DNA from: Desulfomicrobium escambiense DSM 10707
GTDB taxonomy: Bacteria; Desulfobacterota; Desulfovibrionia; Desulfovibrionales; Desulfomicrobiaceae
DNA: 64,000 bases
Direction of reading: 5' to 3'
NCBI RefSeq assembly: GCF_000428825.1
Contig: NZ_AUAR01000006.1
Coordinates: forward strand, 62,001 to 126,000
Shown here: in pieces, positions 10,222 to 13,911 of the stretch
Layout of the letters: each line of letters begins with the position of its first letter
How positions within the stretch are numbered: position 1 is the stretch's first letter
Made by a program: the position numbers and the translations under genes
Notes under the pieces: generated by a model
The model's database searches: none
Told to the model about the DNA's origin: nothing
What the model saw: the letters and a program-made list of their open reading frames with translations, nothing else

Positions 10222-10317
10222 ACCGCACGCGCGCCCTGCTGCGCCGGACCCCTTCGGGTCATGGGGCACACATCCGGGCCGAACATTTCCGAGGAGAAGA
10301 TGAGAGTGGAAGGAAGA

Positions 10318-10587
10318 ATGATGAAGATGTGCGCATGCACAGCCCTGGCCGGCGCCATCCTGCTGGCCGCCCCCGCCGCCGTCCTGGCCGGCGACACCGT
10401 CGAAGTACACGGCATTCTGGAAGAAACCAGCACCGGCACCATTCTGGTGACCGAGGCATCGAGCTATATCGTGCGCGGCATCGACGCATCGGGACTGGAC
10501 GGCCGCAAGGCCATCGTCCTGGGCGATGAGGGGCGGGACAACGGCATCGAGTTCATCGATGCCCTGGAGATCAAGATCGCCCAATGA
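10318..10587 (+). CDS. Small exported protein, unknown function
   Basis: An 89-residue product with a clear signal peptide (MMKMCACTALAGAILLAA, with likely cleavage after VLA and before GDTVEVHG). The mature part, about 65 residues, is beta-rich and reads like a small OB-type fold (GDTVEVHGILEETSTGTILVTE, GRKAIVLGDEG). I do not recognise a named family. Starts at 10300, 10318 and 10321 are all possible; GGAAGGA at 10308-10314 favours 10318 or 10321. It lies between a sigma-54 activator and the cimA leader, with a sigma-54-like site about 100 bases upstream. Confidence 0.65.
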   Translation: MMKMCACTALAGAILLAAPAAVLAGDTVEVHGILEETSTGTILVTEASSYIVRGIDASGLDGRKAIVLGDEGRDNGIEFIDALEIKIAQ

Positions 10588-10612: not shown

Positions 10613-10618
10613 TTGACA
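10613..10618 (+). promoter_or_regulatory. Candidate -35 element for the cimA leader transcript
   Basis: TTGACA is a perfect -35 hexamer 47 bases before the leader peptide start. No convincing -10 hexamer is seen at the expected distance (the region reads TTCATCAACG), so the call is weak. Confidence 0.35.
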
Positions 10619-10659
10619 ATCGATTCTCCATTGTTCATCAACGCAGAAAGGTGCAGCAT

Positions 10660-10734
10660 ATGAAAACAGTTTCCACCCCCATTTCCATTATTATTCTGAT
10701 TTCCGTGATCATCCGGTCACGGTCGGGGGAGTGA
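10660..10734 (+). CDS. Isoleucine-rich leader peptide of the cimA attenuator
   Basis: A 24-residue reading frame with seven isoleucine codons, including ATT ATT ATT (10687-10695) and ATC ATC (10708-10713), plus two valines and one leucine. AGAAAGG at 10645-10651 provides a ribosome site. It lies directly before a terminator ahead of citramalate synthase, an enzyme of isoleucine synthesis. Ribosome stalling at these codons when charged tRNA-Ile is scarce is the expected signal. The frame is too short to be found by length but is supported by codon content, position and the matching RNA structures. Confidence 0.8.
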   Translation: MKTVSTPISIIILISVIIRSRSGE

Positions 10735-10800
10735 CGCGCCTGCACCACACGGACGTCCGCGCAAGCAAAGCCCCCCGACCGCAAGGTCCGGGGGCTTTTT
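10703..10800 (+). promoter_or_regulatory. Transcription attenuator of cimA
   Basis: Three mutually exclusive structures are visible. A pause hairpin pairs CCGTGA (10703-10708) with TCACGG (10717-10722). An antiterminator pairs GGTCGGGGG (10721-10729) with CCCCCGACC (10772-10780). A terminator pairs AGCCCCCCGACC (10769-10780) with GGTCCGGGGGCT (10785-10796), with one mismatch, followed by TTTT. The antiterminator takes the 5' arm of the terminator, and the pause hairpin overlaps the tandem Ile codons. This is the classical ilv/leu-type layout. Confidence 0.8.
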
Positions 10801-10883: not shown

Positions 10884-12503
10884 ATGAACACCATCCAGAT
10901 CTACGACACCACCCTGCGCGACGGCACGCAGTCCGAGGAGCTGAACCTGTCCACCGAGGACAAGTTGCGCATCGCCACCAGGCTCGACCAGCTCGGCATC
11001 GCCTACATCGAAGGCGGATGGCCCGGTTCCAACCCCAAGGACAAGCGCTTCTTCGCCGAAATGCGCCAGTACGAGCTGAGCACGGCCAAACTGGCCGCTT
11101 TCGGCTCCACGCACGCCGCCAAGGTTTCGGCCGAGAACGACCAGAACCTGCTGGCTTTGGTGGAGTCCGGGGCGCCGGTTTTGACCATCTTCGGCAAGAC
11201 CTGGGACATCCATGTCACCGACGCCCTGAAGATCACCCTCGAACGCAACCTGGAACTCATCCGCGATTCTCTCGCCTTCCTGCGGCCCCATGCCCAGGAG
11301 CTTTTTTACGACGCCGAGCACTTCTTCGACGGCTTCAAGACCAACCCCGAGTACGCCCTGACCTGCCTGCGCACCGCCTGGGACGCCGGCGCGGAGCTTC
11401 TGGTCCTGTGCGACACCAACGGCGGCAGCCTCCCGGAGGAAATCGCATCCATCATGGACACCGTGCGGGAGCGGCTGCCCCAGGCGCGCCTGGGCATCCA
11501 CGTGCACAACGACTGCGAGCTGGCCGTGGCCAACTCCCTGGCGGCAGTGAGCCATGGCGCGGTCCAGGTCCAGGGCACCATCAACGGGTACGGCGAGCGC
11601 TGCGGCAACGCCAACCTCTGCTCCATCATCCCCAACCTCGAACTGAAGATGGGCCTGTCCTGCCTGCCCGCCGGACACCTGGAGCGCCTGACCGAGACCG
11701 CGGCCTTCGTGGCCGAGGTGGCCAACCTGCGCTGCTTCAAGCGCCAGCCCTATACGGGCCAGTCGGCCTTCACCCACAAGGGCGGGGTGCACGTCGCGGC
11801 CGTGCGCCGCAACCCGCGCACCTACGAGCACATCGAGCCCGAACTCGTCGGCAACAAGCAGCGCATCATTCTCTCGGACCTGGCCGGTCAGTCCAACATC
11901 CTGTACAAGGCCAAGCAGTACGGCTTCGAACTGGACAAGGGCGACCCCTTCGTCCTGGAACTGCTGACGGAGCTGAAAAACCGCGAAGACCAGGGCTACG
12001 AGTACTCGGCCGCCGAAGCCTCCTACGAACTGCTGGTCAACCGCGTGCTCGGCCGGGCGCGCAACTATTTCCGACTGATGAGCTTCCGCATCCTGGACTC
12101 GGTCTTCACCGAAGGCGTCGCGCCCTTTACCGAGGCCACGGTCATGCTCCGCGTGGGCGGCATGGTCGAACACACGGCGGCCACGGGCAAGGGCCCGGTC
12201 AACGCCATGGACTGCGCGCTGCGCAAGGGGCTGGAGCGCTTCTACCCGAACCTGGGCGAAATGCGCCTGCTGGACTTCAAGGTGCGGGTGCTGGCCGTGG
12301 CGAACAAGGAAGAGGGGCACAGCGGGACGGCTTCCGTCGTGCGGGTGTTGATCGAATCCGGGGACCAGAAGAGCCGCTGGACCACGGTCGGCGTGTCCTA
12401 CAACATCATCGAGGCCAGCCGCCAGGCCCTGGAGGATTCCATCAACTACAAGCTCTTCAAGGACGACCAGAAGAAGCTGACCCAGGCCATCCGGGAGATC
12501 TGA
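10884..12503 (+). CDS. cimA: (R)-Citramalate synthase
   Basis: Condenses pyruvate and acetyl-CoA to (R)-citramalate, the threonine-independent entry to isoleucine. The 539-residue length and the features YDTTLRDGTQSEEL near the N-terminus, HVHNDCELAVANSLAAV with the metal-binding histidines, and HKGGVHVAAVRRNPRTYEHI match the long citramalate synthase family seen in Geobacter and Desulfovibrio rather than classical LeuA. The C-terminal third is the LeuA-type dimerisation and allosteric domain. ATG 10884 has GGGAGA upstream. The isoleucine-rich attenuator in its leader independently supports the assignment. Confidence 0.93.
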   Translation: MNTIQIYDTTLRDGTQSEELNLSTEDKLRIATRLDQLGIAYIEGGWPGSNPKDKRFFAEMRQYELSTAKLAAFGSTHAAKVSAENDQNLLALVESGAPVLTIFGKTWDIHVTDALKITLERNLELIRDSLAFLRPHAQELFYDAEHFFDGFKTNPEYALTCLRTAWDAGAELLVLCDTNGGSLPEEIASIMDTVRERLPQARLGIHVHNDCELAVANSLAAVSHGAVQVQGTINGYGERCGNANLCSIIPNLELKMGLSCLPAGHLERLTETAAFVAEVANLRCFKRQPYTGQSAFTHKGGVHVAAVRRNPRTYEHIEPELVGNKQRIILSDLAGQSNILYKAKQYGFELDKGDPFVLELLTELKNREDQGYEYSAAEASYELLVNRVLGRARNYFRLMSFRILDSVFTEGVAPFTEATVMLRVGGMVEHTAATGKGPVNAMDCALRKGLERFYPNLGEMRLLDFKVRVLAVANKEEGHSGTASVVRVLIESGDQKSRWTTVGVSYNIIEASRQALEDSINYKLFKDDQKKLTQAIREI

Positions 12504-12849: not shown

Positions 12850-13911
12850 TCAGATTCCCAGAGCGTCCTTCATGTACGGGAAGTCGATGATGGAGCTGAC
12901 CAGCTGTGAGCCGTGCTGAATCTTGATCACGTCGCGCAGCTTGTGACGCGAGAGGATGGCTTCCATCTTCTTGGCCACGGTGAAGGTATCGTCGCGGACG
13001 ACCACAATGGGCACTTCGAGGACCTCGGCCCGCGTCATGATGATGTCGTTGGGGTAGAGGTTGCCCGTCAGGACCAGGCACTGGCACTGCCCTTCCAGGG
13101 CCACCAGCTGCACGTCCGAGCGGTCGCCGCCGACGATGATCGCCGACTTCTTGCTCTTGCGGAAATGGGTCATGAAGTTCTCGACCTGCATGGTGCCGAT
13201 GAGGAAATTCTCGACCACGCGCTCGGACTTGTCCTGGGCGGTGATGATGCGGCCGCCGAGGCGGTCGGCCAGGTCGGCGACCTTGATGGCGCCCATGAGG
13301 GGGTCGCTCGGGATCTTGCCCAGGACCTTGATGCCCTTGCTCTCCAGGAAGGGGTGCAGGAGGGTGTCGAGCTCCTCCTTGAAGGACGGCGGGATGTCGT
13401 TCAGGAGCACGCCCAGGAGCTGGTCGTCCAGGCGCTCCTTCATGGACAGCAGGTAGTCGTAGTTCAGCTCCTTGACGAAGCGATCGATGACGATCGCCTT
13501 TATCCCTAAGGCCTTGACCACGCTGACGCCGTCCAGGCCGCAGTACTTGCCCGAGTACATGCTGCCCGACCCGGCCACGATCATGACGTCCTTGTCCTTG
13601 CTCAGTTCGTCGTAGGCGGCCTTGATGCGCGGCATGAGATCGTCGCACTTGCCGGTGAAGGCCTTCATCTTGAAGTCCTGGTCGACGACCACGGGAGTGA
13701 CCAGGGCCGGATTTTCGGCCAGACCCAGGATGTCCTGGACAAAGAACGCGTCGGCATCGCCGAGAACGCCGTTCTTTTCCTGCGGAAGGGCGCCCACGGG
13801 CTTCATGTAGCCGACCCGGTAACCCTCCTTCTGGAGCTTGAGCCCGATGCCCATGGCGATCATGTTCTTTCCGGAATAGCCGGACGTCGCGCCAACATAA
13901 ATTCCTACCAT
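12850..13911 (-). CDS. BioD-like/DRTGG domain protein (phosphotransacetylase-associated family)
   Basis: A 353-residue protein. The N-terminal half is a dethiobiotin-synthetase-like P-loop domain (GATSGYSGKN at about 7-16). The middle and C-terminal part is a DRTGG-type domain (VGGDRSDVQLVALEG, LTGNLYPNDIIMTRAEVLEVPIVVVRDDTFTVAKKMEAIL). These two domains make up the N-terminal part of long phosphotransacetylases, but the catalytic PTA domain is missing here. It is transcribed after the ADP-forming acyl-CoA synthetase gene, 37 bases away, suggesting a regulatory or sensing role in acyl-CoA/acetate metabolism. The precise function is unknown. Confidence 0.82.
   Translation of the reverse strand: MVGIYVGATSGYSGKNMIAMGIGLKLQKEGYRVGYMKPVGALPQEKNGVLGDADAFFVQDILGLAENPALVTPVVVDQDFKMKAFTGKCDDLMPRIKAAYDELSKDKDVMIVAGSGSMYSGKYCGLDGVSVVKALGIKAIVIDRFVKELNYDYLLSMKERLDDQLLGVLLNDIPPSFKEELDTLLHPFLESKGIKVLGKIPSDPLMGAIKVADLADRLGGRIITAQDKSERVVENFLIGTMQVENFMTHFRKSKKSAIIVGGDRSDVQLVALEGQCQCLVLTGNLYPNDIIMTRAEVLEVPIVVVRDDTFTVAKKMEAILSRHKLRDVIKIQHGSQLVSSIIDFPYMKDALGI

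Follow-up and report, generated by a model that had tools for sequence, protein, structure and literature searches.

The region upstream of the (R)-citramalate synthase gene cimA in the window, that is, the whole stretch of 64,000 nucleotides analysed from Desulfomicrobium escambiense DSM 10707, very probably encodes a ribosome-mediated transcription attenuator, predicted to sense charged tRNA-Ile and to control cimA alone. This reading is based on the anatomy of the region, its conservation, the complementarity of its segments, which show some covariation, and on how well the ribosome positions fit. An isoleucine attenuator ahead of citramalate synthase had been proposed in an initial annotation of this DNA and is supported here, as the comparative tests that could have contradicted it did not do so.

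The leader ORF (MKTVSTPISIIILISVIIRSRSGE) was found at 10660-10734 on the + strand, preceded by a Shine-Dalgarno-like AGAAAGG at 10645-10651 (+ strand), a place at which most relatives are purine-rich. It contains 24 codons and a stop codon at 10732-10734 (ATG AAA ACA GTT TCC ACC CCC ATT TCC ATT ATT ATT CTG ATT TCC GTG ATC ATC CGG TCA CGG TCG GGG GAG TGA), and 18 genomes of the family were found to share it. Seven of the codons are isoleucine codons (five ATT and two ATC), and a re-reading of the sequence confirmed in all coordinates the annotated 24-codon, isoleucine-rich leader ahead of a terminator. Exactly one ORF of 12-32 codons with at least seven isoleucine codons was present in the window, and this same ORF has the 9-nt antiterminator match and the T5 run; ORFs with seven or more isoleucine codons were absent from 40 dinucleotide shuffles of the window. 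The isoleucine codons of the leader were ATT in 73 of 108 cases across the relatives and in five of seven in this window (10681-10713); the genes of the window contained ATC at 125 of their 141 isoleucine codons, and cimA itself favoured ATC by 25 to 1. A bias among control codons is already known for attenuators (PMC1183508).

A promoter-like block was found upstream of the leader at 10613-10641 (+ strand), containing TTGACA (10613-10618), a 17-nt spacer and a weak -10-like CATCAA (10636-10641). The sequence TTGACAATCGATTCTCCATTGTTCATC (10613-10639) contains a near-palindromic ACAAT...ATTGT and is accompanied by a poor -10, and the consensus promoter scan found no promoter at the leader and no adequate -10. 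The block was present in 11 of the 15 Desulfomicrobium upstream regions, the remainder keeping part of it, and TTGACAATCGATTCTCCATTGTTCATC was nearly invariant across the genus with its spacer included. Such invariance would suit a site, TTGACAAT-N9-ATTGTTCA, for an isoleucine-responsive regulator that does the main control, with the leader acting in fine-tuning. This explanation is unlikely, since a query with TTGACAAT-N9-ATTGTTCA, no mismatch being allowed, returned this site only and no further full-match copy in the organism's own genome, which gives no sign of a regulon, and since it leaves unexplained the leader, which is retained in L011, L012 and L014 where the block has drifted.

The elements of the predicted attenuator itself were found within and after the leader. 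An intrinsic terminator spans 10770-10800 (+ strand), and the inner portion of its 5' arm, CCCCCGACC (10772-10780), is exactly complementary to the antiterminator segment GGTCGGGGG (10721-10729, + strand), which lies inside the last leader codons; the complementarity annotated earlier therefore holds to the base. The terminator contains the 5' arm GCCCCCCGACC (10770-10780), a GCAA loop (10781-10784), the 3' arm GGTCCGGGGGC (10785-10795) and T5 (10796-10800), with one C-C mismatch in the 11-nt arms and a hairpin energy of -24.7 kcal/mol. It was found in 17 of 17 aligned sequences, and it was absent from the list returned by the consensus terminator scan of the + strand. A further hairpin, P1, described previously as a pause hairpin, was found at 10703-10722 (+ strand) with the structure CCGTGATC/ATCC/GGTCACGG (8 bp, -11.9 kcal/mol), covering the tandem ATC ATC (10708-10713, isoleucine codons 17-18) and extending 2 nt into the antiterminator segment. 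P1 contained 7-8 bp in most Desulfomicrobium and was weak in L011, L012, L014 and L015. The fold of the whole leader was 3.4 sd better than that of dinucleotide shuffles. A long-range GGTGCAG/CTGCACC pairing, seen in the single-sequence fold, was rejected as a functional element, L002 reading GGCGCAG/CTGCACT at this place.

From this arrangement we infer the transcription start site, the translation of the leader, the stalling and the transcriptional (kinetic) outcome as follows. Transcription would begin shortly before 10660, and the leader would be translated by a ribosome. When Ile-tRNA is scarce, the ribosome would wait at isoleucine codons 8-18, short of the last codons, leaving 10721-10729 exposed to pair with 10772-10780 once the latter is transcribed, so that the terminator would be too late to form and RNA polymerase would continue into cimA. 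When isoleucine is abundant, the ribosome would reach the stop codon (10732-10734) and cover 10721-10729, the terminator at 10770-10800 would form and transcription would stop.

The RNA was folded with the ribosome footprint masked at each leader codon in 17 sequences. With the ribosome masked at the stop codon, the antiterminator probability was 0.00 in all 17, and with the ribosome at most isoleucine codons, where the antiterminator can still form in the nascent RNA, it reached roughly 0.5-1.0 in nearly all Desulfomicrobium. At equilibrium, the complete RNA was found to favour the terminator in most species, also when a ribosome was stalled on it, and the predicted switch would therefore have to be kinetic, decided during RNA synthesis; a co-transcriptional choice between structures is a feature of other attenuators too. 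In the calculation with no ribosome, the antiterminator was formed at 0.86 in this window, which indicates that P1 is no effective protector here, and it hardly formed in the close relatives L002 and L003. The antiterminator was not blocked by P1 in most calculations. The pause hairpin of the initial annotation thus exists and overlaps ATC ATC, but its overlap with the antiterminator is limited to 2 nt, with no calculated exclusion in this window; the stop codon is therefore expected to be the position at which the ribosome decides the outcome. In this model P1 would be at most an auxiliary part, likely pausing RNA polymerase so that the ribosome and the polymerase stay in step.

Each of the 15 Desulfomicrobium genomes with an identified cimA contained the leader, the antiterminator segment and the terminator, as did three genomes of the sister genus Thermodesulfomicrobium (the third being L242), and neither the frame nor the terminator was lost in any of these relatives. 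The comparison of related cimA leaders, suggested earlier as a check, showed conserved isoleucine codons across the 18 genomes and, in several lineages, antiterminator changes matched in the terminator arm. Each leader contained 4-8 isoleucine codons (17 of 17 aligned sequences). The N-terminal half of the peptide, the leader length, the spacers and the distance to cimA were variable. The terminator was constant, as were the isoleucine-rich run and the final codons (mostly SRSGE, SRPGE or SRPGA); these codons probably persist because the antiterminator is encoded in them. The segment and the arm were found as GGTCGGGGG/CCCCCGACC, GGCCGGGGG/CCCCCGGCC and GGTTCGGGG/CCCCGGACC, often with both partners altered together, and the paired changes were GGTC/GACC, GGCC/GGCC and GGTTCGGGG/CCCCGGACC. 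The match was shortened in L006 and L013. A column-wise covariation count on the alignment agreed with the pairing and was modest, because the segment is coding and mostly invariant and because Thermodesulfomicrobium is out of register there. A register-free comparison is the better measure, and among seven sequence types only 44 of 5040 segment-to-arm reassignments paired as well as the true ones.

This conservation bears on a second explanation, according to which the terminator merely ends the upstream gene, the isoleucine-rich ORF and the complementarity are incidental, and cimA has its own promoter downstream. A small gene (10300-10587) does stop shortly before the promoter-like block, and the 83 nt from the T run to the cimA start could house a promoter. 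We regard this explanation as very improbable, since the complementarity between the leader end and the 5' arm, along with the isoleucine-rich frame, survives sequence changes, and since in Thermodesulfomicrobium, where the T run begins only 18-19 nt ahead of cimA, a promoter would not fit. Some leader-peptide systems work through translation or Rho, and regions of the RNA other than the terminator fold well too, but an action of this leader through reinitiation, coupling, exposure of a hidden start site or Rho, and not through the intrinsic terminator, is the least probable of the explanations, given that every relative retains a terminator with a run of five or more T and that the distance from the leader stop to the cimA start, about 150 nt in this window and about 64 to 156 nt among the relatives, is ill-suited to coupling.

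For the attenuator reading, isoleucine is the expected end-product signal, since the product of cimA (10884-12503, + strand) was identified by the curated citramalate synthase profile TIGR00977 (733.1 bits, cut-off 450) and no match above the cut-off to the threonine deaminase ilvA profile (TIGR01127) was found in 17 genomes, this one included. Isoleucine synthesis here appears to start from citramalate synthase. No same-strand gene was found close downstream of cimA, the next gene (12850-13911) lying on the - strand, and leuA, like the main ilvB and ilvD, was located elsewhere in the genome. A check of these three genes in the same genomes for isoleucine- or leucine-rich leaders gave no convincing attenuator. 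Upstream of the second ilvBN of Desulfomicrobium, a leader in which valine codons form a run, mostly as GTA/GTC (MNRICNAFVSLVVVVVVCVVRDALTL), was observed together with a strong terminator (L086, located at G000:C7 upstream of 175867-177519 on the - strand, as well as L085 and L087-L090). This leader is probably a valine attenuator, and the genome seems, as judged from these sequences, to control different branches by different attenuators.

In the Desulfobacterota, 101 of the 130 cimA genes sampled, about four fifths, were found directly after aspartate kinase (lysC), the linkage being judged by a C-terminal motif, with one example identified by profile; none of these 101 contained an isoleucine leader with a terminator. 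Examples of the arrangement are L018, L025-L027, L029 and L030, and it is lost where attenuators appear. Outside this arrangement, isoleucine-rich leaders with a terminator, and with the antiterminator mostly in the last codons, were found before cimA genes of the Desulfobacteria/Syntrophia type (L202, L205, L209-L211, L214, L218, L252-L254, L257, L258 and L296). Isoleucine-only leaders such as MKKDIRAIIIINIIISFCIGGRGAV, MHYRNLNTIIGIIIGIISPGNSGA and MNLISIIIISGIIIIGGTYTA were contained in these further lineages, as were isoleucine/leucine/valine leaders, for example MQNIIVIISATGILLPLLLLVVVRLKGPGLIMT, where leuA or ilvD comes after cimA. Accordingly, a lone cimA was found with an isoleucine-only leader and a cimA heading a leu/ilv operon mostly with a leader of all three codon types, the exceptions being L296, with an isoleucine-only leader despite leuA downstream, and L210, with a mixed leader and no leuA within the flank examined. 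In one planctomycete genome (L305, Planctomycetaceae bacterium HKST-UBA52), an isoleucine-rich leader MFNIISISAIIICSMIADRPS followed by a terminator was observed about 370-250 nt before cimA, possibly a further separate cimA attenuator. The antiterminator match was short in L257, L258, L296 and L305.

On the CimA tree, Desulfomicrobiaceae were nested with full support in leaderless, mostly aspartate kinase-linked Desulfovibrionales, and at least four changes of leader state were forced. Separate origins are likely from these forced changes together with the unrelated terminator sequences. There is thus a reasonable, though less firm, case that the cimA attenuator was gained repeatedly on leaving aspartate kinase, in Desulfomicrobiaceae, in the Desulfobacteria/Syntrophia group and perhaps in the planctomycete, with leader codons that mostly match the operon content. 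Such separate origins would offer a compact natural experiment on the emergence of attenuators and on the way in which their codons track operon content. CimA and isopropylmalate synthase are often mistaken for each other, and for this reason the leader codons would be useful as an in-genome readout of the amino acid served by a cimA gene. The earlier remark that an attenuator dedicated to cimA is little described stands in so far as no described one was found, although similar leaders precede cimA beyond this genus. The literature covered on cimA or Desulfovibrio-group attenuators contained nothing relevant, subscription papers such as the main proteobacterial survey (Vitreschak et al. 2004) lying outside its scope. 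The mechanism is known, and the target gene and the repeated origin appear to be undescribed in the searchable literature.

Among the known systems, the T-box found upstream of leuA-type genes in Firmicutes (e.g. PMC12452182) likewise responds to tRNA charging and precedes genes of the same enzyme superfamily, but it binds the tRNA directly and without a leader ORF; no gathering-score match to a T-box or any other Rfam family was found in the window or at nine related loci. The ilvBNC leader of Corynebacterium, for which an ilvB-II motif (PMC10272879) and a three-hairpin model (PMC11857589) have been described, also combines a leader peptide with competing hairpins before a branched-chain amino acid operon, but it differs in gene, phylum and sequence, and its operon is common to the three branched-chain amino acids. 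The cimA leaders of the Desulfobacteria/Syntrophia type resemble the present one in the isoleucine-rich leader, the antiterminator within the final codons (evident in most), the terminator and the cimA gene downstream, whereas their terminator is unrelated in sequence (with a CCGTTATCAGG or CCGCTGCCAGG arm), some contain leucine and valine codons and head cimA-leu-ilv operons, and they stand apart on the CimA tree. The enteric attenuators (trp, his, thr, leu, ilvGMEDA and ilvBN) share with the present system the short leader rich in end-product codons, the intrinsic terminator and the antiterminator that pairs the leader region with the 5' arm of the terminator. In contrast to these, the antiterminator here lies within the last codons, where the terminating ribosome would cover it, with a P1 overlap of 2 nt, and the predicted control concerns cimA alone, by which the pyruvate (citramalate) route to isoleucine would join the steps under leader-peptide attenuation.
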